In this document: positions 4,724 to 49,650 of the stretch, one piece after another
Layout: the number at the start of each line of letters is the position of its first letter
Numbering within the stretch: the first letter of the stretch is position 1
IMG/VR virus record: IMGVR_UViG_3300027917_000064
Location: 1-49,650 of that record
Direction: 5' to 3' (one strand)
From: a virus
DNA length: 49,650 nucleotides
Notes under the pieces: model-generated
Databases searched by the model: none
What the model was told of the DNA's origin: nothing
Seen by the model: the letters and a program-made list of their open reading frames with translations, nothing else
Program-made: the position numbers and the translations under genes

Positions 4724-5030
4724 TCTTTTAGAACGCACGACCGCGATTACTAATAACACCACGCCGACCGGGCGTGAGCTTGGAGTAGTTATGAATAGAG
4801 AGTATGGCTTGTTTCGTATTCGTTATGTGGATAACAAGCCGGGAGATTTGCCAAACAATCTTAATGGGTTGTACACAAAACATGAGTACGCGGCGTCTGC
4901 TCTAAGGAACTACATTAGAGAGATGTGGGATATGAATGACAAGGCTGTAGAGAAAGCGCGTCTCAAGAGTCATCGAGAAAAGGTGATGCCAAATGCAGAG
5001 ACGCCCGATCAGTCTAGATCCACAGGTTAA
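4707..5030 (+). CDS. small protein between adaptor and nozzle
   Basis: A 107-residue protein beginning MADAPDLLERTT. I chose ATG 4707, six bases after GAAGGAG; an in-frame TTG at 4701 is less likely. It overlaps the adaptor gene by 17 bases and the nozzle gene by 38. The core (GLYTKHEYAASALRNYIREM) is helical. ITNNTT near the N-terminus is encoded by a degenerate palindrome copy at 4746-4757. The family is not recognised; it may be a tail-assembly factor. Confidence 0.7.
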   Translation: MADAPDLLERTTAITNNTTPTGRELGVVMNREYGLFRIRYVDNKPGDLPNNLNGLYTKHEYAASALRNYIREMWDMNDKAVEKARLKSHREKVMPNAETPDQSRSTG

Positions 5031-24394: not shown

Positions 24395-26289
24395 GGTATC
24401 TCACATCCTCCTGCTGTACAGGCTAGTTCCTGACTTCCCGTTGTGGTGTCGTCACCTTCTTTGAACTCGGACCAGTCGATGTTGTTGGGCATCTTTTCTT
24501 GGAACGCTTGGTACTCTTCCTTGGTGATCTCCTCGTAAGGAGCCTGTCTATAGCTACCATTGTCGTAAGGTAGAAAAGAAACACCCGAGAGGATATCGAA
24601 GTGACGATAGACCCAAGCCCCGACATCGAGCCACTCGTGTTCTCTGACGTATACTGTGATGGACGGTTTGTGCTCACACCAGTTCTCCTGATAGTGCTTC
24701 CAAAGTTCAAGCTGCTCAAGCGCAGTCATGTCATCCTTAAGGTAACTAGTATCCGGTGCCTTCTGTGGAAAAGAAAAGACCCAAGCACTCTTGTTGTAGA
24801 AATCTTCTTCGTGCGGGAATCCCTTTAGTCGCATCCAATCAGCCATTGGGTCTTTCTTATCAAATCGAACTCTCCGCAGATAGTATCTCGAATAGCGGGG
24901 ATGTATTCCAGAAGCGGTCCCGGCAAGCTGTGAGACGGTCCCACTTGGTTTAACGCAAGTAACTCCGTGAGACGGCTCAATACCAATGAGTGCACTGTAA
25001 GTTGCGTTTGCGGAAATTGCAGCGTCACGTAGTGTCGATAGGAGTCTTCCACTGGCGTCGCTAACGCTTGACGCAAGAAGGTGATCGCAGATTCCTGTGA
25101 GTGATACACCCAATAATCTCTCTTCCTCGGTATTAGTAACCCATTTTCTACCCAAGTAGCGAAAATTTGTGAGAGAAGATTGTAGTGTTCCCAAGATTGC
25201 GGCGTAGACAACTTTGGTATACAAGGTGTCGCTTGTATCGCTATGCTGAACAACAACCTCGCTGAGATTGCAGAATTGATTCGGTCTAAGAATGATCTCA
25301 CTACACGGATTTGTACCATAGTCCACATCACTTGGTCTTCGGTCATTCCTAGCTGCCTGAGCTTGGCTAGCTGGGCGAGAAAAGATACCACGCTCTCCTG
25401 ACTTACTTTCATACAGGCTCTCCCATTCCCTCATAAAGATTCCGATGTCCGGTTTCTCTGTGTATGAAACGCTGTTGTTAGCCAGCGCCCGTTGCCCGTT
25501 TGCGAGCCACCAGTCTCCTGACTTGGCGTGTCGCATTCTGTCGTCGGTGAGGTTTGAGAGGGAGATGAGGGCGGATCTCCTGACTCCTCCGACAACGATA
25601 CACTCTCCGACTTTGCACATGATGTCGTGAGCTTCGAGGCTAGTGAGTCTGCGGCCTCTTGCATTCTGGAAAACCTTGATCGTGAATTTGAACAGATCCT
25701 CAAGAGGCTCAGGGCCGCTTGCTCTACCACCGAAAGTTCGCAGAGGGCTGCCCGCAGGTCGTACTCTTGAAGTGTCCCATTTCGGCACTCCACCTCCATA
25801 GAGCAATCCGAGAAGTTCACGAAAAGCCGATGCCCATCCGATCTTACTGTCACGGACAATAATGGTAGTGTCGGTGGCGTGGAGTTCATCAGGTACCTCC
25901 GGTAATTTATTGATGTACTGTCTCTCGACGGAGAACCCTACACCAGTACCACACATGAGGATGTACATGGCTTCATCAAACGCCTTCGGAGAATCCACAG
26001 GTAGGTACGAACAGTTGTAACCTGCAACGTTGTCGCGCTTCAGTGCCTCACCAGCGGTCATCATACATCGCATTGAAGGTAGCACGTCAAGGTTCAGTAC
26101 TGCCTGTTGTAGTTCATCCCACGGAATTTCCTTCATAGCCTTTGGCTTGACACCAAGGGTACTAGTAACATGGTCCTTAAAGAAATCAAAGTAACGCTGC
26201 ACGGTTTCATCCCACGTCTCGCGCCGCCCCAAGTCAGGGCGGTACCGTGCATACCTAGACATGGCAATCATCTTTTGGTATTCATTCAT
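24391..26289 (-). CDS. nrdJ: adenosylcobalamin-dependent ribonucleotide reductase (class II)
   Basis: A 632-residue enzyme (start chosen at MNEYQKM; upstream in-frame starts lie inside the previous gene) that reduces ribonucleotides for phage DNA synthesis using vitamin B12. Key residues align with the Lactobacillus leichmannii enzyme. Cys93 (YNCSYL) and Cys340 (NQFCNLSE) form the redox pair. Cys329 and Glu331 in GTNPCSEI are the thiyl radical and acid, with the 408/410/419 spacing kept exactly. The C-terminal shuttle pair Cys624/Cys629 (ACTAGGCEIP) is present. It is shorter than the 739-residue enzyme. It is oxygen-independent but needs B12, which is notable beside the CobS/CobT-like genes. 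A one-mismatch palindrome lies at 26158. Confidence 0.93.
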   Translation of the reverse strand: MNEYQKMIAMSRYARYRPDLGRRETWDETVQRYFDFFKDHVTSTLGVKPKAMKEIPWDELQQAVLNLDVLPSMRCMMTAGEALKRDNVAGYNCSYLPVDSPKAFDEAMYILMCGTGVGFSVERQYINKLPEVPDELHATDTTIIVRDSKIGWASAFRELLGLLYGGGVPKWDTSRVRPAGSPLRTFGGRASGPEPLEDLFKFTIKVFQNARGRRLTSLEAHDIMCKVGECIVVGGVRRSALISLSNLTDDRMRHAKSGDWWLANGQRALANNSVSYTEKPDIGIFMREWESLYESKSGERGIFSRPASQAQAARNDRRPSDVDYGTNPCSEIILRPNQFCNLSEVVVQHSDTSDTLYTKVVYAAILGTLQSSLTNFRYLGRKWVTNTEEERLLGVSLTGICDHLLASSVSDASGRLLSTLRDAAISANATYSALIGIEPSHGVTCVKPSGTVSQLAGTASGIHPRYSRYYLRRVRFDKKDPMADWMRLKGFPHEEDFYNKSAWVFSFPQKAPDTSYLKDDMTALEQLELWKHYQENWCEHKPSITVYVREHEWLDVGAWVYRHFDILSGVSFLPYDNGSYRQAPYEEITKEEYQAFQEKMPNNIDWSEFKEGDDTTTGSQELACTAGGCEIP

Positions 26290-26530
26290 CTTCGTCACCA
26301 ACCTCTCTTGTTTTAATGAAGCGGGTGTACTCTTCCCACTCGATGTCTTCTGCATCGTAGTATTCTCCAACATATCCTTGTATGAGATCCCGTTGGTACC
26401 CGCGATCAACCTTCGCATAGTACTCGTGTAGTTTGTCATCGAATCTTTCAATGATGTCCTCCTGCGTGATACCTAGCTCGTCACACATTGCGTCGATGTC
26501 CATATCTAGGAAGTAATCTTTGATGCTCAT
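26282..26530 (-). CDS. small acidic hypothetical protein before nrdJ
   Basis: An 82-residue acidic, Asp/Glu/Tyr-rich helical protein (MSIKDYFLDMDIDAMCDELG). ATG 26530 sits in GAGGGTTACTAGTATG, with a palindrome copy between GAGGG and the start; a TTG five codons upstream is less likely. The 3' end overlaps nrdJ by 8 bases. The segment DELGITQEDIIERFDDKLHE resembles small DNA-mimic or HTH-like proteins, but I do not recognise a family. Confidence 0.7.
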   Translation of the reverse strand: MSIKDYFLDMDIDAMCDELGITQEDIIERFDDKLHEYYAKVDRGYQRDLIQGYVGEYYDAEDIEWEEYTRFIKTREVGDEDE

Positions 26531-26541
26531 ACTAGTAACCC

Positions 26542-26673
26542 TCAATCATCATCGACGAAACCGCAAGAATGACAGAACCCATCTTGAAAAAAACCACCAC
26601 ACACAGGACACTCTTCCTCATCATAATCATCTTCTTCATTGTCTTCATATTCATCATCATTCATTTTAAACAT
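26542..26673 (-). CDS. 43-residue acidic zinc-ribbon micro-protein
   Basis: A 43-residue protein with a strongly acidic first half and a CPVCGG...CHSCG zinc-knuckle (Cys22, 25, 34, 37). ATG 26673 is preceded by GGGGGTTACTAGT, with a palindrome copy between the G-run and the start. Its stop overlaps the spacer of the next gene. The rubredoxin-like Cys spacing (CxxC-8-CxxC) and compact size support it as a real gene. Function is unknown; small zinc ribbons of phages often bind nucleic acid or host proteins. Confidence 0.65.
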   Translation of the reverse strand: MFKMNDDEYEDNEEDDYDEEECPVCGGFFQDGFCHSCGFVDDD

Positions 26674-26690
26674 ACTAGTAACCCCCGTCA

Positions 26691-27452
26691 TCAAGAATAA
26701 ACGTCTTTGAGCCTACCGAGAGAGTAGGTGGCAAAGTCGAATCGGTTGTCGGAATAGTGATCGAGTACGACGAGTCCCCTCCAGTACGAGGTGACGGAGC
26801 CTTTGGCGTACTCATCGACGTGTTCAAAAAAGCAACCAACATTAAGAGCTTGGTTAAGATGTGGAGCATTGTGACGATGCTCGCCAGCAGTATCAAGTTT
26901 GTGAGTATGACCAAAGACCACGCTATTGTGGTAGATACTAAGAGCCTTTTGAACAGCGTACTTTCCACCGACTGCTTTACCGTTTTCTTGGATAGGGACG
27001 TGGGTGAATGAGACTCCTTTGTGGTTCCAGTCGTGTTTGTATTTGACGTATTCAATGATGTATCCTTCTTCCCTAATGTCGCGTAGTAGGTCATGTTCGA
27101 CGTTCACCTGTCCTTCTAGTTCCGGGTGGTAATCAAGATATCTATCAGTCCTGTTCTCGTGATTACCTTCGCAATAGATAACATCTATGTTACGATGTAC
27201 CTTGTTGAACATCCTTTCAAGGCCCTCACGTCCTGCGTTGATATCTAGGGCGTAGCGTCTGTTCTCCATGATCTTACGCTTGTCCTTATCCCAAGCTGAG
27301 AGTGAGTCCATAGTCACGAAGTCACCGATGATGACAATACGATCCGGCTCAATGTCACGTATCAAACCATTAGCCCAATCGAACCGACGTAAGTCTTGGC
27401 CCGGTGCTACGTGGGCATCTCCAATCACCAGTGTTTGATCAAGACGTGCCAT
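26691..27452 (-). CDS. calcineurin-like metallophosphoesterase
   Basis: A 253-residue enzyme (start at MARLDQTLVIGDAH, 10 bases after GAGG; a Met five codons upstream is possible). It has all metallophosphoesterase blocks in order: GDAH, GDFVTMDS, EGNHENR, the late FTHVP box and GHTHKLD. It would use two metal ions to hydrolyse phosphoesters, and phage members range from nucleotide phosphatases to nucleases of the SbcD/Mre11 type. It has no capping domain and no SbcC partner nearby, so a simple phosphatase or nuclease is likely. It overlaps the upstream small gene by 14 bases. Confidence 0.82.
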   Translation of the reverse strand: MARLDQTLVIGDAHVAPGQDLRRFDWANGLIRDIEPDRIVIIGDFVTMDSLSAWDKDKRKIMENRRYALDINAGREGLERMFNKVHRNIDVIYCEGNHENRTDRYLDYHPELEGQVNVEHDLLRDIREEGYIIEYVKYKHDWNHKGVSFTHVPIQENGKAVGGKYAVQKALSIYHNSVVFGHTHKLDTAGEHRHNAPHLNQALNVGCFFEHVDEYAKGSVTSYWRGLVVLDHYSDNRFDFATYSLGRLKDVYS

Positions 27453-27708
27453 ATAGTGAGTCCTCATCTTTAAAGGTACGCTTCTCCCACTTGTACTTGG
27501 CGAACTCAAGCATCAGTAGCATATCACTTGATGGCATAGGGGTCCATCCCATGCTCAGTTCCTCGCCATCTTCATCGTTGATGATGACGATCATCTTGGC
27601 ATTGGGCTTATCCTTAACGTAGTCAGCAAGTGCTTCCGCGATACCCTTTGGTGTGTCACTACGGAACAACTTAGGAAACTCTAAAACCTTCTTATCATCA
27701 TCGTCCAT
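27439..27708 (-). CDS. small hypothetical protein
   Basis: An 89-residue protein with ATG 27708 nine bases after GGAG. It has an acidic start (MDDDDKKVLEFPKLF) and an alpha/beta core with AKMIVIINDEDGEELSMGWT and a final helix MLLMLEFAKYKWEKRTFKDE. This short beta-hairpin plus helix pattern is common in small phage proteins of unknown function. It is coupled to the metallophosphoesterase gene by a 14-base overlap. Confidence 0.7.
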   Translation of the reverse strand: MDDDDKKVLEFPKLFRSDTPKGIAEALADYVKDKPNAKMIVIINDEDGEELSMGWTPMPSSDMLLMLEFAKYKWEKRTFKDEDSLYGTS

Positions 27709-27713
27709 ATTAA

Positions 27714-27803
27714 TTATCTCCGTCTGTCAAAGTGACTTGCTACTAGTGCTACCACTATAGAACACAGGGTTACTAGTATTGCTATACACTCGTACTTATA
27801 CAT
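27714..27803 (-). CDS. 29-residue membrane peptide
   Basis: MYKYECIAILVTLCSIVVAL then VASHFDRRR: one transmembrane segment with a basic C-terminal anchor. ATG 27803 lies inside the 3' end of the upstream gene, with GGGAG about seven bases before it. A two-mismatch palindrome (27769-27780) lies within the gene. Tiny single-TM peptides are common in phages and easily missed; function unknown. Confidence 0.5.
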   Translation of the reverse strand: MYKYECIAILVTLCSIVVALVASHFDRRR

Positions 27804-28488
27804 CGTCTGTCTCCCTACCAGGGAGGAAGGTGTCGATCTCGTCAAGTGTGCCCCAGCGACCATCGAAATCAGACATCTCCCGCTGCACGTCGCGCAACAA
27901 CCGCTCCGCTGTTGCAAGGCGAGCAGAAAGTTCCATGTTCTGACCGTCTGCGGTAAGTAGATCAGCCCGCAGCCGTTCGATCTCGTCGCGGAGGCGGGTG
28001 ATCTCTGCATGTACGGGCACGCTTACGTAGTGTCCTCTGTCACCTATTAATACAGTCTGCGATGGACTGCACCGCTCACGCAGCCGCTCGATTTCGTCGG
28101 CGGCCATTCTGAACAGGTCGTTTGACCCATCATATTTATCTGCGGCACCCTGTAAGCCACGCAGCCTCTCCATCAGGCCGTCCTTGTCGAAGGTGCAGGC
28201 CCTCTGAAGTCGTTCGATCTCGTCGGCGGCTTCCGGTCCATCAGGATTGCGATACCAGTTTGTCGTTAATCCCGGCAGGCGAGTTGGCCCATGCTCTACT
28301 TTCCGCAGCCTTTCCAATAGATCACTCACAAGCTCCTCCGTCCTCGCCTCGATCTTCTTCCGCCTCTCAGGAGGCAGGCTGTCTCGGAGTTCAGATAGCG
28401 TGCGGCCTTTCACGATGTCGCAGGAGTGCCCTTCGGGCTCGAAGTAGTGGGCTCTACAAACGGGACAGATGTTCCAGTCGTGGCTCAT
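27796..28488 (-). CDS. zinc-knuckle and coiled-coil hypothetical protein
   Basis: A 230-residue protein (start chosen at MSHDWNICPVC, nine bases after GGAG; an ATG five codons upstream is possible). The N-terminus has a Cys/His knuckle (CPVC...HSC). Then come long heptad helices with repeated ADEIERL(Q/R) phrases (ERLQRACTFDKDGL and ERLRERC, later DEIERLRADLL). The repeated phrase suggests internal duplication. Codons are G+C-rich compared with flanking genes, hinting at a recent transfer. It may be a scaffold or adaptor protein. Function unknown. Confidence 0.65.
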   Translation of the reverse strand: MSHDWNICPVCRAHYFEPEGHSCDIVKGRTLSELRDSLPPERRKKIEARTEELVSDLLERLRKVEHGPTRLPGLTTNWYRNPDGPEAADEIERLQRACTFDKDGLMERLRGLQGAADKYDGSNDLFRMAADEIERLRERCSPSQTVLIGDRGHYVSVPVHAEITRLRDEIERLRADLLTADGQNMELSARLATAERLLRDVQREMSDFDGRWGTLDEIDTFLPGRETDDV

Positions 28489-34481: not shown

Positions 34482-35555
34482 TCACACCTTGTTCAAGTCT
34501 ATACTAGTAACCTTCATGAAGATCTCAGCGACTTGCTTCTGATCATCTTCAATCAGCTTGTTACCAAACGAAAGACGAAATGCCTTGGCAAGATCACCCC
34601 AATAAGTAACCTTCGAGGCCCATGTTACCAGACCACGAGGTGACATAGTGAAGTTGATAGTGCCAGTGTCATACCCACGACGCACGAGCGCAGCTACCTC
34701 AAGCATACGAGCGAGCCAGTCGTCAGGGATATTGGGCACCCTGCTCTTTATGACTGCTGTTTCATGTTCCTTGGATAGATAGTCTAACTGGATGGTAGTA
34801 GAGAACCTGTCAATTAGAGCCTCATTCTGCACGTTGGTTCCAGCATATCTCCCAGATGTATCACCCTGTAGCTTAGTGTTATCAGTCGCCCCGATCCTGA
34901 ACCACGGTGCAGGTTGGATGTACCGTTCACCCTTCGGCTTGTCAGGAATATAGATAGGACCGTTGGGTTCCAGCGGTGACATCAAAGCCATCGCAATACC
35001 AGCAGGCGTGGCACTGATCTCATCGCACGTTAGCATACCACCGTGCTTACCAAGCAAGGGTAACGGACCATCAATCCAGTCCAACTCACCCGCTGCAAGC
35101 GAGGGTGTACCAAAGAACGCAGAAGATTCCATGTCCTGCCTACAGTTGACACGGAACCAAGGGATACGCATACGTGCACAGATCTGCTGTTGTAATGTGG
35201 TCTTGCCACTGCCCTTCTTGCCAGTTATCAGTAACCTGTCGTTGTTCATGATGGCAACGACTGCTTCTTCTGTCTCTGCGGGTGGGAAGATGTAGCCCTC
35301 GTCCACAACAGGGATGAACTGACGTACATCCTCGTGCCAATCACTCACCTTGAAGACACGTACCGCATGGTCAATGCCACTCGGTGGCTTGATATCAAAC
35401 ACCTTGGTAAAGGGCTGCTCCCCACTTTCCAGTTTGATCTCCACCTTGATATCGTCCCTCTTATGAGACGCCTTCTTAGTCTTCCGCTTCTTTGCGGACA
35501 TCTCTTCCTCTGCTTCCTTAAGAACAGCAAAGAGTTCTTCATCCAATGACGACAT
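34482..35555 (-). CDS. CobS/MoxR-type AAA+ ATPase
   Basis: A 357-residue AAA+ protein (ATG 35555, nine bases after GGAGG; its first base overlaps the upstream TGA). It has Walker A LLITGKKGSGKTTLQQQ and Walker B GGMLTCDEIS (Asp178, Glu179). A MoxR/CobS-type insertion follows: FFGTPSL, LMSPLEPNGPIYI, then FRIGATDNTKLQGD and an arginine-finger region near ALIDRFST. CobS is the ATPase partner of CobT in cobaltochelatase; MoxR ATPases act with VWA proteins to load metals or remodel proteins. The adjacent gene is a VWA protein, forming a CobS/CobT-like pair. Confidence 0.85.
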   Translation of the reverse strand: MSSLDEELFAVLKEAEEEMSAKKRKTKKASHKRDDIKVEIKLESGEQPFTKVFDIKPPSGIDHAVRVFKVSDWHEDVRQFIPVVDEGYIFPPAETEEAVVAIMNNDRLLITGKKGSGKTTLQQQICARMRIPWFRVNCRQDMESSAFFGTPSLAAGELDWIDGPLPLLGKHGGMLTCDEISATPAGIAMALMSPLEPNGPIYIPDKPKGERYIQPAPWFRIGATDNTKLQGDTSGRYAGTNVQNEALIDRFSTTIQLDYLSKEHETAVIKSRVPNIPDDWLARMLEVAALVRRGYDTGTINFTMSPRGLVTWASKVTYWGDLAKAFRLSFGNKLIEDDQKQVAEIFMKVTSIDLNKV

Positions 35556-37390
35556 CACACAGTTCCTCCATTAAGGATGTTGTAACTAATCACCTTAAGC
35601 AACCCATCTTCCAACTCATCAGCACGTTGTATGACTACGTGCTTCTTATAAAACTGTATCACGTTCCTGTCCATGATACCAATGCCTATGATATCAGCAC
35701 GCTTCTGCTCTTCGATGTGCTGAACAACGTACTTCAGTGCGTAGTACGGATCAGTGTCACCTATCCCATCAGCAGGGGATCCATCACTGAGTACAATGAG
35801 TACCTTACGCTTGGTCTGCTGTTGCAAGAGCCTATCGTACGCAAAGTTAATAGCATCAGCATCCGCATTGCCCCACATACGTGAAGTAAAGTCATCGAAC
35901 CTACTGTATATCTGCTCATCAGTAGCCCTGATGCTGAATGGTTTGATCACGCCTACGATTGTACCGTAGTCCTCACTGAACGTCAATATTTCTGTGTTGA
36001 CACGCAGCACGTTACTAATAACGTGGTTAATTAGCATCGCACTCTTTGTTGCGTGCACCACCTTGGGTCCGTTCATGCTACCACTCATGTCTACCAGAAC
36101 AGACACACTTGTATCAAGTAAGTCCGCTTCATACTTCTTACGAAACACACGCCTGTTCCAGTCACCATCACCCACAATAGGCAAGGCAGCACGGTACAAC
36201 GCACGGTTATGGATGGTACCCTTTGTGTGACCACCCATGTACAGCGTAGCACTCTTGACTTGCAAGTACCTACGTACCCTGTTAGCAAAGGAGGTACTAG
36301 TATTCAGCTTGCTGAGGCTACCACCCTCACGGTTAAGATAGCCTGATCTTAAGGGCTTAGGATTATTGTGGTACTGCACAGTCTTGATGTTCTTTAAGTC
36401 TTCAGGTATCCAGACTTTACGAACACGGTGCTTCGCATAGTCTAGCCCAAGACCGTGACCAGCAGGATCATGTGGATCTTTGGGCTCGTGCTGTGTCTTG
36501 ACAAAGAACTCGTAAGGGATAGTGTACTTGCCTGTCCTCTCGTCCCACTGTCCTTCCTTTGCAGGCTTGCCATCACCCCGCTTGCCCACCTTTCCATCCT
36601 TGCCTCCCTTCTTCTCTTCATTCTCCTCGCTCTCTTCCGACTCACCCCTACCTTCTCCCTTTCTCAACTCCTGCATTTCCTGTTCCACTTCCTCTGGTGT
36701 CTTGTCCCAGAGTAAGCCATACAGTTTCTTAGCAAGCTCAATAGTTTCATCACCACTACCAAGGTTATTAATATCCTTGATAGCATCAGCGTGATGTAGC
36801 TTGTTGACGTACTCACTGATGTTGGGATAGGTTGAAGTGGATAGCTCAAGCTCCTCTCGCATGTGCACGCTGGCACCCGGACACCACTGTGACTGTGCTA
36901 CACCAGCAGTCAGGAACATGGCACTCATCTTGGCTGTCTCATCTGCCAACTGATCGCTTGGTACGTTGTGTACTAGTTCCTTTGTGAACTGAAGTGACTC
37001 GTGTCCTAGTATCTCACGACCATCACTGATGATACGCTCATCACCCACGTACCTAGAGGCTGCGCTCTTCTCAATGCGCTGGTCCTCTAAGATGTTGCAT
37101 ATAGCACCAAGTGGGTGCCCTATGTGCAAGCCTGTGTCCTCTACCAAATCAAGATACTCACTACCCTCAATGTGGTGAGACAACTCGTGACGCACAAAGA
37201 ACCTGAGCTTTGCCTCATCATCCACAGTCAACCGTTCATTGAACGTGGGTATTAGTAACGTCCTCTTGTTTGTGCAAGGACCGGGGATGTCATCCCTGAA
37301 CTGCACATCTATGTCATTCCTGCTGCACTCACTCCAGATCCAGCGTCGAAGGTGGTTGAGTTCATTGAGGGAGGTCTGTCCCTTTGCCAT
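35555..37390 (-). CDS. CobT-like VWA protein with N-terminal HExxH metallopeptidase-like domain
   Basis: A 611-residue protein. N-terminal residues 60-107 have RFFVRHELSHHIEG (HELSH, residues 68-72) and ICNILEDQRIEK, giving an HExxH plus downstream E/D set like a zincin. The centre (240-285) is a Lys/Glu-rich low-complexity linker. The C-terminal half is a von Willebrand A domain with an intact MIDAS (LVDMSGSMNG, Asp434-Ser436-Ser438), then LIVLSDGSPADG. CobT of cobaltochelatase has a related layout. No CobN is seen. It is paired with the CobS-like ATPase with a one-base overlap. An exact palindrome was not seen inside it; a one-mismatch copy at 36011 and others lie within. Confidence 0.82.
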   Translation of the reverse strand: MAKGQTSLNELNHLRRWIWSECSRNDIDVQFRDDIPGPCTNKRTLLIPTFNERLTVDDEAKLRFFVRHELSHHIEGSEYLDLVEDTGLHIGHPLGAICNILEDQRIEKSAASRYVGDERIISDGREILGHESLQFTKELVHNVPSDQLADETAKMSAMFLTAGVAQSQWCPGASVHMREELELSTSTYPNISEYVNKLHHADAIKDINNLGSGDETIELAKKLYGLLWDKTPEEVEQEMQELRKGEGRGESEESEENEEKKGGKDGKVGKRGDGKPAKEGQWDERTGKYTIPYEFFVKTQHEPKDPHDPAGHGLGLDYAKHRVRKVWIPEDLKNIKTVQYHNNPKPLRSGYLNREGGSLSKLNTSTSFANRVRRYLQVKSATLYMGGHTKGTIHNRALYRAALPIVGDGDWNRRVFRKKYEADLLDTSVSVLVDMSGSMNGPKVVHATKSAMLINHVISNVLRVNTEILTFSEDYGTIVGVIKPFSIRATDEQIYSRFDDFTSRMWGNADADAINFAYDRLLQQQTKRKVLIVLSDGSPADGIGDTDPYYALKYVVQHIEEQKRADIIGIGIMDRNVIQFYKKHVVIQRADELEDGLLKVISYNILNGGTV

Positions 37391-37405: not shown

Positions 37406-37472
37406 GTTACTAGTATTAATATATATATATATTCTTATTCTTATTTATATATATAATATATATATTATACCA
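37406..37472. promoter_or_regulatory. palindrome and A+T tract upstream of the CobT-like gene
   Basis: A two-mismatch palindrome (37406-37417) is followed by a 56-base almost pure A/T run (37414-37469) that reaches the stop of the next gene. It separates the CobT/CobS/replication block from the small early genes on its right. It could hold a leftward promoter, an intrinsically curved site or a local melting point. No clear -35 and -10 pair was found. Confidence 0.45.
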
Positions 37473-37752
37473 CACTCTCAAACCACTGGTCAAATTGTTT
37501 GAGGCACCTGCCCACTGCGATAGCCCATCCCAGCCTGCGGTTAGGCTGATCGTGCGGGTTGCACCAGCTAGACCCAAAGGCTACTGCCTTGTTGGTCTTG
37601 CGGTTGATGACAGCAGCCCATGTATGGTACTTGGCACTGTGCCCGTGGCACTTGATTGGCCCCTTGCTGTGGTGCACCTCCACCTTGTAACCTGCTGATT
37701 CCAATAGCTTAATCCTGTGCCTGTACCTTTCAAACTGTTCACTGATTGACAT
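37465..37752 (-). CDS. hypothetical early protein
   Basis: A 95-residue basic protein with His/Cys-rich middle (HHSKGPIKCHGHSAKYHTWA) and a helical C-terminus ending FDQWFESVV. The alpha/beta pattern HTWAAVINRKTNKAVAFGSS could bind a nucleotide or nucleic acid. It starts about 11 bases after GGAG and two bases from the previous gene. The family is not recognised. Confidence 0.68.
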   Translation of the reverse strand: MSISEQFERYRHRIKLLESAGYKVEVHHSKGPIKCHGHSAKYHTWAAVINRKTNKAVAFGSSWCNPHDQPNRRLGWAIAVGRCLKQFDQWFESVV

Positions 37753-38357: not shown

Positions 38358-39080
38358 TTAGGCTGCCGCCTTCACAGGGTTCGGCTCTTCATCCTCTTCA
38401 TCGCCCCACTCATCACGCACCAAGTCATCCAACCTAGTGTTGAACATGCGGAGCACGTCCTCCCTTGAGACACTCTCAAGGACGGACAGCCTGCGAGCGA
38501 ACGTGATGCCAGCATCCATCGCCTTCTCAAGATCAGACTTGGGAGTACGAGCAGCACTCTTAGACTCCTTGATAAGATCCTGAAGCTGCGTCTTACCACG
38601 AGGTGTGCCATCCGAACGCCACAAGATGTGGCCTCCATCCTTCACAACCCCAAGGATCTGCTCACCACCACGCACTGCGTTAGTAATGACAGACTTCGCA
38701 CTCTTCAAGGAGTTCTTCATCTTCTCCCTGATCTGACCCACACGCTCCAGCCTCTCGACCTTCTCAGGTCCAGTGTGCTTGGCCTCAATATCCTTAGCAC
38801 GGATGTCAAGCTCCTCAAACACATCCTTCTGGAGCTTCACGATCTCAACACCGATGGCCTTAGCCGCATCCTCGTAAGACTCAAAGGTCATGCCACGCAA
38901 GGCATCGTTACCGATAGCCAACACCTGACCGAACGAGTTCTCAAACAACTTATCGACAGTCAACTGACCCTCGACAGCCATGATAGTCTCGTTGACCCAC
39001 TGCTGACGCGGCTTCGCCTCAATGGCACAGCCCTTGAACGTGATGGCAGCAGTCATCTTAGCCTTCTTACTCGTAGTCAC
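38358..39080 (-). CDS. hypothetical early protein, helical
   Basis: A 240-residue protein with a GTG start (39078-39080) six bases after GAGGAG. It is mainly helical and charged, with a coiled-coil-like centre (ELDIRAKDIEAKHTGPEKVE, then RLERVGQIREKMKNSLKSAK) and an acidic tail (DEWGDEEDEEPNPVKAAA). It lies early in the leftward transcript, so it may be abundant in early infection. The family is not recognised. Codon use is G+C-rich. Confidence 0.7.
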   Translation of the reverse strand: MTTSKKAKMTAAITFKGCAIEAKPRQQWVNETIMAVEGQLTVDKLFENSFGQVLAIGNDALRGMTFESYEDAAKAIGVEIVKLQKDVFEELDIRAKDIEAKHTGPEKVERLERVGQIREKMKNSLKSAKSVITNAVRGGEQILGVVKDGGHILWRSDGTPRGKTQLQDLIKESKSAARTPKSDLEKAMDAGITFARRLSVLESVSREDVLRMFNTRLDDLVRDEWGDEEDEEPNPVKAAA

Positions 39081-39098: not shown

Positions 39099-39227
39099 TT
39101 AGTAACCCAGTAGTAGTGCACACACACCTAGTACTAACACAACAAGAGCGAGTGCAACTAGGCACACACCCACTCCAACCAACAGAAACTCAATGCGTCT
39201 TACGTTCCACACCTCACCACCTCCCAT
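39099..39227 (-). CDS. 42-residue membrane peptide
   Basis: A single-TM peptide (FLLVGVGVCLVALALVVLVL, then GVCALLLGY) after a short basic N-terminus. The start is uncertain: ATG 39227 lies in the previous gene, or GTG 39215 sits just three bases after GGAGGT. It overlaps the 62-residue protein gene. The DNA end overlaps a one-mismatch palindrome at 39095-39106. Function unknown. Confidence 0.5.
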   Translation of the reverse strand: MGGGEVWNVRRIEFLLVGVGVCLVALALVVLVLGVCALLLGY

Positions 39228-39402
39228 CAATCTGTGAGATGAGATCGTCACGCTCCTGTGCCCACTCAGCACACTTCTCAATGTACCACATAGGCAGATC
39301 AAGCGCAAGGTATGCAGCCTTGGCCTCCTCCTTATCGAACGTACCGATCCACGAGTTCAACTCAAGGATCCGACGCACGATGTGCTTGTAGTCGTGCTTC
39401 AT
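39214..39402 (-). CDS. 62-residue hypothetical protein
   Basis: A helical small protein (MKHDYKHIVRRILELNSWIG, then FDKEEAKAAYLALDLPMWYI). ATG 39402 has GGAGGT four to five bases upstream, a strong site. It follows the 85-residue protein gene by three bases. The family is not recognised. Confidence 0.65.
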   Translation of the reverse strand: MKHDYKHIVRRILELNSWIGTFDKEEAKAAYLALDLPMWYIEKCAEWAQERDDLISQIDGRW

Positions 39403-39405
39403 ATA

Positions 39406-39663
39406 TCACCTCCGATTCATCATGTACTTGGCGTCGAGGTTCTTCAACTCCTGCTCAAGCAAGTCGATGGCACGAGTGTAGTCCTTGTACTCGTGATGCT
39501 TCGCCCACTTGAGGCTGAGAGGACGGGACTTGAGAGTCTCGATCTCACGCTGGATGTTACGACGCTTGTTCTTGTAGGTCACATCGAACTGCGTCGCATA
39601 CATGAGCTTGCGACGGGTGTTCCCAGCCTGCCGCTTGTTCGCCTTGTTCACACTGTCAGCCAT
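39406..39663 (-). CDS. 85-residue basic helical early protein
   Basis: This is the first clear protein gene after the leader of the early promoter. It is Lys/Arg/Asn-rich and helical (KANKRQAGNTRRKLMYATQF; then YKNKRRNIQREIETLKSRPL), so it may bind nucleic acid. AGGA lies about 10 bases before ATG 39663, just downstream of two hyphenated palindromes. It is a candidate for early takeover functions, but no family is recognised. Confidence 0.65.
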   Translation of the reverse strand: MADSVNKANKRQAGNTRRKLMYATQFDVTYKNKRRNIQREIETLKSRPLSLKWAKHHEYKDYTRAIDLLEQELKNLDAKYMMNRR

Positions 39664-39676
39664 GATACTTGCTTCC

Positions 39677-39691
39677 TATTACTAGGTAATA
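39677..39691. promoter_or_regulatory. hyphenated palindrome TATTACTAGGTAATA
   Basis: ATTAC-TAG-GTAAT with a 3-base spacer, just upstream of the 85-residue protein start. It belongs to the same class as the sites at 40144, 40244 and 40752, and differs from the dispersed 12-mer by one extra central base. Confidence 0.6.
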
Positions 39692-40139
39692 ACTAGGCAG
39701 TTACTAATAACTGCCACCTCCTGCTGCACGCAGGCTCGTGCACACTCCAGTCGAATGTGCACTGGTCTACATACAGGATATACTGCTGTTAGACGATGCG
39801 AATACTCGGACGTTCTGGTCCTAACGTCGCAGGACATACGTTGCCTGTCCGTACCGGCTTTCACCCCACGATACTAGTAACCAAGTGCCTGTTCCTATGT
39901 GCCTGTGATGCGTGTGTTCATGCTTGATCCAACCACGCTACCGCTCCCGCTTGCGGCATCCATCGTACAGTCTAAGGACCGCACATCACATCAGGCTAAT
40001 ACACTTGAGCCCTCTCGTGTTTGCTAGGTCTGGGCTAGCGGCACCGCTCGTGCACGCGAGGTGTGCTATGCCTCGCGGGACTCCTGTACCAGAGCCTCCA
40101 TCCTGCTGCGCGACTCGCAGGCATCCGTAATCTGCGCCA

Positions 40140-40160
40140 GCTAATTACTGAGTAATAAGC
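40140..40160. promoter_or_regulatory. hyphenated palindrome downstream of early start site
   Basis: ATTAC-TGA-GTAAT with outer GCT/AGC arms, about 25-45 bases downstream of the predicted start of the early promoter. Placement fits a repressor or roadblock operator. Confidence 0.6.
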
Positions 40161-40192
40161 TAAATCTAAACTCAATAATCCACTGTAACACC

Positions 40193-40221
40193 ATTATACC
40201 ACATTAGCACGCTTATGTCAA
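40193..40221 (-). promoter_or_regulatory. consensus sigma70 promoter for the leftward early operon
   Basis: On the minus strand this reads TTGACA (40221-40216), a 17-base spacer, then TATAAT (40198-40193). Both boxes and spacing are the perfect bacterial consensus. Transcription should begin near 40186 and run left through the structured leader into the early and replication genes. It is flanked by two ATTAC-N3-GTAAT-like palindromes and an exact GTTACTAGTAAC at 40257-40268, so it is likely a controlled, very strong promoter read by host RNA polymerase. Confidence 0.88.
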
Positions 40222-40243
40222 CTAATAAGGCACGCCCACACTC

Positions 40244-40268
40244 TTATTACTGAGTAGTTACTAGTAAC
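40244..40268. promoter_or_regulatory. palindrome pair upstream of the early promoter
   Basis: A degenerate hyphenated site (TTATTACTGAGTAG, 40244-40257) runs directly into an exact GTTACTAGTAAC (40257-40268). It lies about 23-47 bases upstream of the -35 box, where activators or looping repressors usually bind. Confidence 0.6.
40257..40268. repeat. exact dispersed palindrome GTTACTAGTAAC
   Basis: An exact copy upstream of the consensus early promoter. Confidence 0.9.
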
Positions 40269-40278
40269 CTTCTGGCAT

Positions 40279-40307
40279 AAAAAAAGGGAGGCCTTGCGGC
40301 CTCCCTT
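40279..40307 (-). terminator. intrinsic terminator after the 138-residue protein gene
   Basis: On the minus strand the hairpin GGGAGGCC-GCAA-GGCCTCCC is followed by a run of seven T residues (40285-40279). It lies 14 bases past the stop of the leftward gene 40321-40737, so that gene is its own transcript, insulated from the promoter at 40193-40221. Confidence 0.92.
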
Positions 40308-40320
40308 GGGTTAGGTTGGG

Positions 40321-40737
40321 TTACTTGCTGAGGTTCTTCTGAAGGTAGGCCGCGCAGGCATCGCGCTCGACCTTGCTGGTCTGCGACCAGACCGCGACCA
40401 GTGCCTTGCACAGTTCCATCGCAGTCAACCCGTCGGCGCTCGGGCCGTCGGTCTTCGCCTTGCGTCCCGCACCCTTAGCCCTCTTCGCGGCAAATCCCTT
40501 CGCCTTGCGCTGGATCGTCGCGTAAGTGCTGACACGCTGCAACGCGTACACGACGCGATCAGACTTAGCATCCTTACCTGCGGTTGCCTTGATATCAGTC
40601 CGCAGGTCTTCTGCGAACTTGTCTAGGCCCGCCGCGTCAAGATTGGACGTGAGGCGCATGAATTCCGCCTTGTTGGTCGCGTCCGCCTTGCCAGCGCGAA
40701 GGATGGAAAGGGCCAGATTGTGGATAGCAGTAGTCAT
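40321..40737 (-). CDS. 138-residue G+C-rich early protein, own transcript
   Basis: A basic helical protein (start at MTTAIHNLALSILRAGKADA; a longer reading frame to 40959 runs through control sequence and is rejected). GGAG lies 10 bases before ATG 40737. The centre is Lys/Ala-rich (QRKAKGFAAKRAKGAGRKAK), like small DNA- or RNA-binding proteins. The end (VERDACAAYLQKNLSK) is helical. Its G+C content is far above that of its neighbours. It is the first gene leftward of the origin-like region with its own terminator, suggesting an early regulator or host-takeover protein. It is also the best-placed candidate for binding the clustered palindromes, but this is only inference. Confidence 0.7.
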   Translation of the reverse strand: MTTAIHNLALSILRAGKADATNKAEFMRLTSNLDAAGLDKFAEDLRTDIKATAGKDAKSDRVVYALQRVSTYATIQRKAKGFAAKRAKGAGRKAKTDGPSADGLTAMELCKALVAVWSQTSKVERDACAAYLQKNLSK

Positions 40738-40814: not shown

Positions 40815-40828
40815 TTGTTAAAGAACCG
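40815..40828 (-). promoter_or_regulatory. boxA-like antitermination string
   Basis: The minus strand reads GGTTCTTTAACAAC, which matches the ribosomal-operon boxA (TGCTCTTTAACAAT) at 11 of 14 positions. It lies about 80-90 bases upstream of the 138-residue protein start. It could recruit host NusB/S10 to early transcripts. A single short match is weak evidence. Confidence 0.35.
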
Positions 40829-40971: not shown

Positions 40972-40980
40972 TGTGGATAA
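40972..40980 (-). promoter_or_regulatory. perfect DnaA box (TTATCCACA on minus strand)
   Basis: TGTGGATAA on the plus strand is the exact complement of the consensus DnaA box. By chance a given 9-mer on either strand is expected about 0.4 times in this genome, so alone it is not proof. Its place beside an iteron-like array and an A+T tract in the only large gene-free control region makes it more convincing. Confidence 0.6.
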
Positions 40981-41276: not shown

Positions 41277-41365
41277 AATGCAACCGGGGTATCCGGGGGG
41301 TTGGGGGGCCCACCCACAGTAAGTAGTATATCACCTCGAAACTTTCTCACAGAAATTCTGAGGGG

Positions 41366-41480
41366 TTAATAATAATATATATATATAATAAATAATAATA
41401 ATATAAATATATATATAATAATATAAAATGGGGGTATATATAATATAATATATAATAATATATATAAATATATAATATAC
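41366..41480. other. A+T tract, possible DNA-unwinding element
   Basis: About 115 bases of almost pure A/T (TA and TAATAA repeats), broken only by a G-run at about 41430-41435. It lies 90 bases right of the iteron-like array. Such tracts melt first at replication origins. It may also help the rightward promoter. Confidence 0.6.
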
Positions 41481-48450: not shown

Positions 48451-49650
48451 ATGCCTAAAAGAGTACTAGATCTTTACACGTACCTTAACCCTGACGAGGC
48501 TGCTTTGGAGATTGCCAAGCAGTACGACAGATGGGTTACGGCACGTACAAAGAAGGAAAAAGAATGGGCCGAGTTGCGGAACTACATTTTCGCAACCGAC
48601 ACGTCTACGACTTCTAATGCCCAGCTTCCGTGGAAGAACAAGACGACGCGCCCCAAGATCTGCCAGATCAGGGACAACCTCCATGCGAACTATATGGCTG
48701 CGTTGTTTCCCAATGACAATTGGTTTACATGGGTAGCTGCGGACAAGGAGAGCGCCACAAAGAGCAAGGTTCTGGCAATTGAAACGTACATGAAGAACAA
48801 GCTAAACCTAAGCAAGTTCAGGCAGGAAGTCTCGAAGTTGGTGTATGACTTTATTGATTATGGCAACTGCTTTGCAGATGTGGAGTATGCTAACGAAGTC
48901 CATATGCTTCCTGATGGGCAAAGTGTCGTGAACTATGTTGGTCCTGTTTTGCGGCGCATCTCACCGTATGACATCGTGTTTGATATTACTAGTAACTCTT
49001 TCAGGGAGAGCCCAAAGATTACACGGACACTCTTGACATACGGTGACATAGCTAAGATTGGAGCTACCCGTCCTGAGTGGAAAGAACTTATGGACAAGGC
49101 GTTTGAAAAAATCAAGGAGATTAGACAGTCGTATCGTTCTTATAAGCCCGGAGATATTCGCAAGAGTGAGGGATTTGTAGCGGATGGGTTTGCTTCTATC
49201 CACGAATACTATAGCTCGGGGTTTGTCGAACTCTTGGAGTTTGAGGGAGACTACTTCGATGTTACTAATAACACCCTCTACGAGAATCACCACGTTGCTA
49301 TCATTGATCGCGCGTATGTCGTCTATAAAGGACCAATTAAGAACTGGTTCGGACGCTCCCTCAAGGAGCACAGTGCGTGGCGGCTACGCCCAGATAATCT
49401 CTGGGGAATGGGACCGCTGGATAATCTGGTCGGTATGCAGTACCGGATTGATCATCTTGAAAACCTTAAGGCAGACGTATTCGATCAGATTGCGTATCCG
49501 TTCTTGAAGATCAAGGGGTATGTCGAAGACTTTGACTGGGCACCGGGGGAGAGGGCTTATTGTGGAGATGAAGGCGACGTGGAAATGCTGGTACCGGATA
49601 CCACTGCACTTAACGCGGACTTTCAGATTGCCCAGCTTGAAGAGGAAATG
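48451..49650 (+). CDS. portal protein, N-terminal part (runs off the right end)
   Basis: The first 400 residues of the portal, continuing at base 3 of the window. MPKRVLDLYTYLNPDEAALE is followed by helical LPWKNKTTRPKICQIRDNLH and NYMAALFPNDNWFTW, then FIDYGNCFADVEYANEV and RRISPYDIVFDITSNSFRES. The last is the usual portal wing region. Two palindrome copies (48985 and 49261) encode ITSN and VTNN. It lies next to the large terminase, as in most tailed phages. The final 278 bases are the diverged second copy of 1-278. Confidence 0.88.
   Translation, partial: MPKRVLDLYTYLNPDEAALEIAKQYDRWVTARTKKEKEWAELRNYIFATDTSTTSNAQLPWKNKTTRPKICQIRDNLHANYMAALFPNDNWFTWVAADKESATKSKVLAIETYMKNKLNLSKFRQEVSKLVYDFIDYGNCFADVEYANEVHMLPDGQSVVNYVGPVLRRISPYDIVFDITSNSFRESPKITRTLLTYGDIAKIGATRPEWKELMDKAFEKIKEIRQSYRSYKPGDIRKSEGFVADGFASIHEYYSSGFVELLEFEGDYFDVTNNTLYENHHVAIIDRAYVVYKGPIKNWFGRSLKEHSAWRLRPDNLWGMGPLDNLVGMQYRIDHLENLKADVFDQIAYPFLKIKGYVEDFDWAPGERAYCGDEGDVEMLVPDTTALNADFQIAQLEEEM
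49373..49650. repeat. right copy of the imperfect terminal overlap
   Basis: Matches bases 1-278 with eight substitutions and no gaps. See the left copy. Both copies keep the portal frame open. Confidence 0.95.

Follow-up and report, generated by a model that had tools for sequence, protein, structure and literature searches.

At the early left end of phage T7 the strong host promoters A1-A3 and an untranslated leader precede the early genes, and in phage HK022 the put RNA, about 70 nt long with two hairpins, lies just downstream of an early promoter. The boxA element of rRNA and lambda leaders binds NusB and S10. ROOL, GOLLD and OLE are folded non-coding RNAs of several hundred nucleotides, and the first two are partly phage-borne. 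In the Vibrio phage ICP2, a member of the Zobellviridae, the early non-coding region (26088-27842) has annotated sigma70 promoters and then, ahead of the first early gene, hundreds of folded non-coding bases in early orientation, with a CobT/CobS module downstream. The literature that we searched does not describe how the widespread Zobellviridae switch on their early genes, apparently without a phage-encoded RNA polymerase, and leaders such as the one proposed below would escape both gene callers and Rfam. The locus described here resembles the ICP2 early region in all of these elements, but has no sequence similarity to it. Its putative leader is much longer than that of the T7-type early left end, and structured; it shares with the HK022 put RNA a layout of consecutive hairpins in a phage leader, but spans about 520 nt, and the likeness is one of layout.

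The window, by which we mean the whole 49,650-nt stretch of the IMG/VR virus record, is, judged by its encoded proteins, a Zobellviridae-like, podovirus-like phage. Its terminase matches those of P12053L and ICBM1/3 at 62% and that of ICP2 at about 51%, its portal, capsid and tail proteins match those of ICP2 (L002), L218 and L219, and the structural proteins as a whole relate to the Zobellviridae P12053L, ICBM1-3, CRP-4/5, ICP2, PA11 and VpV262. The early module holds CobT, CobS, a DnaB-type helicase and PolA. As in that family, the late and early modules diverge: from a boundary near 41 kb the late genes run rightward and the early genes leftward. The window ends (1-278 and 49373-49650) repeat each other over 278 bp at 97% identity, and the record is hence effectively a circular assembly with strain variation. 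A DnaA-type box, TTATCCACA, lies at 40972-40980, and AT-repeat tracts lie at 41363-41476 and 37407-37468; the divergent boundary and the region upstream of CobT, where these elements lie, may hold a replication origin. The early genes relevant to the locus are the following, and in IMG/VR no relatives were found of the proteins encoded by 40321-40737 and 39406-39663:

40321..40737, minus strand: first leftward gene, 138 aa, basic, no family match
39406..39663, minus strand: first small early gene behind the segment, 85 aa, RBS AGGAAG, two predicted helices, no family match
39214..39402, minus strand: next small early gene, 62 aa, recognized by its codon score
38358..39080, minus strand: early gene, 240 aa, no family match
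34482..37390, minus strand: CobT-like and CobS-like genes, markers of the Zobellviridae-type early/replication module

Between the first two of these genes lies a promoter reading leftward into 40186-39664. The control elements at and around it are:

40216..40221, minus strand: -35 hexamer TTGACA, read from the sequence
40193..40198, minus strand: -10 hexamer TATAAT, read from the sequence
40186, minus strand: predicted transcription start, an A, placed by spacing
40243..40268, unstranded: overlapping palindromes TTATTACTGAGTAG and GTTACTAGTAAC, directly upstream of the -35 hexamer, operator-like
40284..40307, minus strand: intrinsic terminator AAGGGAGGCCGCAAGGCCTCCCTT-TTTTT, ending the upstream gene 40321-40737
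40815..40826, minus strand: boxA-like motif GTTCTTTAACAA in the leader of gene 40321-40737
37464..37493, minus strand: second early promoter, TTGACC-18-TATAAT, 11/12, upstream of the CobT-like gene

The promoter occupies 40221..40193 of the minus strand (TTGACATAAGCGTGCTAATGTGGTATAAT) and matches the sigma70 consensus at 12/12 positions, with a 17-nt spacer and a TGG before the -10 hexamer that makes it an extended -10. It is the sole 12/12 TTGACA-16/18-TATAAT site in the window, where dinucleotide shuffling gives an expectation of 0.025, and the perfect sigma70 promoter claimed in the earlier note is thereby confirmed. By its sequence this is a host-sigma70 early promoter, predicted to be active in transcription. 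The same note had held such perfection to be rare in nature, which we correct: further 12/12 sites occur in the related phages L220, L226 (two) and L229, and a perfect site is thus ordinary for phage promoters of this Zobellviridae-like family. The perfect promoter and the one at 37493..37464 have in common a box, TGTGGTATAAT, suggesting that the phage has a few genuine early promoters.

The segment downstream of the perfect promoter and the structural elements predicted within it are:

39664..40186, minus strand: untranslated structured segment of 523 nt, proposed early-operon leader RNA, supported by codon scores, hairpins and folding
40138..40185, minus strand: 5'-terminal hairpin from the predicted +2, arms CAGTgGATTATTGAGT and ACTCAGTAATTaGCTG, pair probability about 0.92
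40142..40158, unstranded: palindrome TAATTACTGAGTAATAA, doubling as the 3' arm of the 5' hairpin
39867..40019, minus strand: central branched domain closed by CACGA/TCGTG and CAAGTGT/GCACTTG, with three inner hairpins (P 0.89-0.99)
39870..39881, unstranded: GATACTAGTAAC, a copy of a genome-wide palindrome, from a motif scan
39696..39794, minus strand: 3' array of four tandem hairpins (39794-39765, 39762-39738, 39734-39720 and 39715-39696)
39676..39711, unstranded: palindromes TATTACTAGGTAATA and GTTACTAATAAC, between the hairpin array and the RBS of gene 39406-39663

All ORFs within the segment have codon log-odds of -0.47 to +0.04, at or under the off-frame background, while the flanking genes 40321-40737, 39406-39663, 39214-39402 and 38358-39080 score +0.32 to +0.50. 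On these scores a missed gene was rejected, and the description of the stretch as some 500 bases without a convincing gene holds. Neither tRNA nor tmRNA was found, and BLASTN of the region against INPHARED gave no match. An Rfam scan gave no family at the gathering threshold, ROOL, GOLLD, tmRNA, tRNA and riboswitches included, and no credible match at relaxed thresholds; in this the segment differs from ROOL, GOLLD and OLE.

In a partition-function fold of the transcribed strand the segment forms about 11 local helices with P>0.75, helix probabilities being mostly 0.8-1.0. Counting non-overlapping hairpins with perfect arms of at least 6 bp, we find 5, against 0.8 in shuffled sequences, none of 300 shuffles reaching this number; genome segments of equal length have a mean of 1.35 and a maximum of 5. 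Hence the hairpin enrichment asserted earlier is real, but its count of at least seven is reached only if arms of 4-5 bp are admitted. The folding energy of the segment, set against the shuffled controls that the earlier note had proposed as a check, gives z = -3.0 to -3.3 on the transcribed strand as against -1.5 to -1.7 on the complement. Genome windows of this length have a background of -1.2 +/- 1.8, which places the segment in the lowest 8% or so; in other words about 8% of genome windows fold as well. Without the terminal palindromes the z-score falls to -1.6, and the most significant part is the 3' 141 nt (39690-39830, z=-4.3). That the folding is low yet not unique in the genome, and that perfect promoters are common in the family, would fit a plain early promoter region without a dedicated RNA function, whose hairpins would be remnants or operators and whose untranslated stretch would simply be tolerated. 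We regard this as very unlikely, given that the hairpin count was matched in 0/300 shuffles and that relatives have matching segments and, in ICP2, a conserved leader (below).

The 3' end of the segment bears on how the RNA would function. The hairpin array ends 32 nt ahead of the start codon of gene 39406-39663, and the RBS of this gene is not preceded by a U-tract intrinsic terminator; the stem 39715-39696, followed by TAGTTATT, was flagged as weakly terminator-like. Since no U-tract terminator precedes the gene and an RBS lies just downstream, a 5' leader is simpler than a discrete non-coding RNA. We therefore think it somewhat probable that 39664-40186 is the long, folded, untranslated and cis-acting 5' leader of the leftward early operon that starts at gene 39406-39663. 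The notion of a strong promoter driving a structured RNA is supported by the anatomy of the locus, its strand-asymmetric folding and the segments of relatives, whereas the decoy or regulator RNA first envisaged does not sit well with the missing U-tract terminator. Such an RNA, of about 490-520 nt, would be freed by processing or weak termination at 39715-39696 and target, in trans, a host factor or phage messages. Its shape would be apt, with a 5' hairpin at +2, a branched core and a 3' hairpin array, the last stem of which is weakly terminator-like; a folded segment also recurs across the family, and the ICP2 leader is strongly conserved. With regard to a terminator-bounded small RNA, however, we find just the weak stem 39715-39696 with TAGTTATTAC, which is no real U tract, and the next gene, with its RBS, follows directly in the same direction; nor is there an Rfam match or conservation of the sequence across genera. 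We consider a discrete RNA unlikely.

As a leader, the segment would work as follows. On phage entry host RNA polymerase would start at about 40186, and the emerging RNA would open with a hairpin at about +2, continue into the branched domain and end in the four tandem hairpins beside the RBS. A role in cis is the most likely: the compact leader would shield the 5' end from decay and keep Rho and nucleases off a long untranslated run, letting transcription reach the early genes, and the boxA-bearing leader some 600 nt upstream would recruit Nus factors alongside. We infer transcription, its start site and the roles in stability and antitermination.

Alignment-guided scans of IMG/VR with terminase, CobT and CobS, and of GTDB genomes with CobS, recovered only distant relatives of the early module, the best being L220 and L222, and no close relative of the window segment. 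In L220, L217 and L222 the place of the window gene 40321-40737 is taken by a first gene of 162-188 aa; behind it come 600-700 nt in which no gene is convincing, and then small early genes. These non-coding segments fold with z of -3.3 to -4.5 in L220, -4.3 to -4.9 in L217 and -5.5 to -10.5 in L222, where the z-scores shift between runs with few shuffles (-10.5 and -5.5). Coding controls lie between +2.3 and -1.3 in L217 and L220, but reach down to -5.3 in L222, which makes the L222 fold weaker evidence than the other two. We compared the strands of 14 early-region segments from 10 phages of the family, among them those of the window, L220, L217 and L222; in 13 of the segments z was lower on the early-sense strand, and only one VpV262 segment departed from this. 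BLASTN among four leader segments gave nothing significant, and no similarity between the window and any relative. As the sequences are not alike, the segments are equated by position, orientation, length and folding. The non-coding DNA that separates the divergent boundary from the first early gene measures 0.3-1.8 kb in annotated Zobellviridae. Single tRNA genes were seen in or near early control regions at L222:1987-2070, L220:7064-7149 and L219:45253-45327.

In ICP2 itself a stretch of about 450 nt (27252-27729), with no annotated gene and a longest sense ORF of 34 aa, is 96-97% conserved among six isolates. The bases upstream of it are mostly 64-92% conserved, and ICP2 and the Haiti isolate share 84-87% identity in their DNA polymerase genes (a difference of 14-16%). 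The consensus fold of this leader comprises 149 pairs, of which 3 show compensatory changes and several a change on one side, and 44/500 shuffles score as high; because the isolates vary little, the substitutions are compatible with conserved pairing and are not proof of it. A broader proposal is that the Zobellviridae carry family-wide structured early RNAs of about 450-700 nt, conserved between genera in place and folding and not in sequence, that modify host RNA polymerase or sequester a host factor as infection begins; we offer this as a doubtful conjecture.

The boxA motifs form a second thread common to the family. In an early control region and in early orientation, exact GNTCTTTAANAA occurs in the window phage, PA11 (two), VpV262 and ICP2 (two); further matches in this orientation are found in L214/L215 and L217, and most ICP2 relatives carry the motif in the form GTTCTTTAACAATTCGG, at the 5' edge of the conserved stretch. 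In L217 the boxA at 4803 sits in the loop of a perfect hairpin, TCTTAAT-GCTCTTTAACAG-ATTAAGA. The motif GTTCTTTAACAA, in the direction of early transcription, is what the window phage and its relatives share with the NusB-S10 leaders of rrn and lambda type. Unlike those leaders, and unlike ICP2, where boxA lies inside the leader (27255) just before the conserved 450 nt, the window has its boxA (40826-40815, minus strand) about 600 nt upstream of the perfect promoter and outside 39664-40186. These rrn-type motifs suggest Nus-factor antitermination in the early control regions, which lends the antitermination leader named in the earlier note some indirect support, and we infer that the phages bearing them may use host Nus factors for early transcription. 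Given an ICP2 leader far better conserved than coding DNA and the boxA, Nus-dependent antitermination becomes testable in growable Vibrio and Pseudomonas phages.

The 12-bp palindrome GTTAYTARTAAC is dispersed over the genome. With up to one mismatch it has 35 copies in the window against 0.4-0.8 expected, and about 50 sites genome-wide once matches to the core TACTAGTA are included (form GTTACTAGTAAC). Of the 50 sites, 15 fall within or border on the 6% of the genome that is non-genic, and most genic copies share one reading frame. The perfect promoter has two overlapping sites immediately upstream, and three are in the segment or at its ends.

1118, 3376, 10134, 17469, 20876, 36011, 38271, 38346, 39095, 39700, 40257, 42077, 49261: example positions of the palindrome

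The symmetry of these sites as DNA, and their membership in a family of about 50, would suit a segment that is mainly a DNA element, such as part of a terminal repeat or packaging site, a replication origin or an operator array, with the hairpins as inverted repeats in DNA. Further, the terminal repeats of VpV262 and ICBM2 sit at the divergent boundary, adjoining the early leader, the ends of the O4 record fall in the same boundary region of PA11, and near the window segment there are the DnaA box at 40972 and AT-rich tracts. We nevertheless judge this reading distinctly unlikely. The transcribed strand folds better than its complement, which DNA palindromes alone would not give; the count of DnaA boxes in the window is not above chance; and the annotated terminal repeats, of 138-159 bp, are placed before the leader, so that repeats in the window are more likely to lie near 40.8-41.5 kb. 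A 680-bp terminal repeat considered for PA11-like phages was rejected, the exact repeat in O4 being 74 bp. In phage T5S1-k141_653015 the segment L299:1-460 folds very strongly on both strands (z -18 and -25) and is probably a long inverted repeat at the divergent boundary.

The dispersed palindrome is a side finding that may matter more. GTTAYTARTAAC is possibly a stoperator-like or nucleoid-protein site; the stoperators of mycobacteriophage L5 are alike in layout, but not in sequence or known biology. A variant, GTTMYTARKAAC, is at least 20-fold enriched in the distant CobT phages L259, L260, L263, L233, L242, L236 and L237, and the enriched CobT phages of IMG/VR have about one palindrome per 1.2-1.8 kb. 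No enrichment was seen in ICP2, PA11 or VpV262, and a scan of IMG/VR returned mostly contigs with a single match, which we take as chance. Another dispersed palindrome, the 8-bp TCTTAAGA, occurs in the CobT phages L223 and L213, with 11 copies in 13 kb and 7 in 21.6 kb, respectively.
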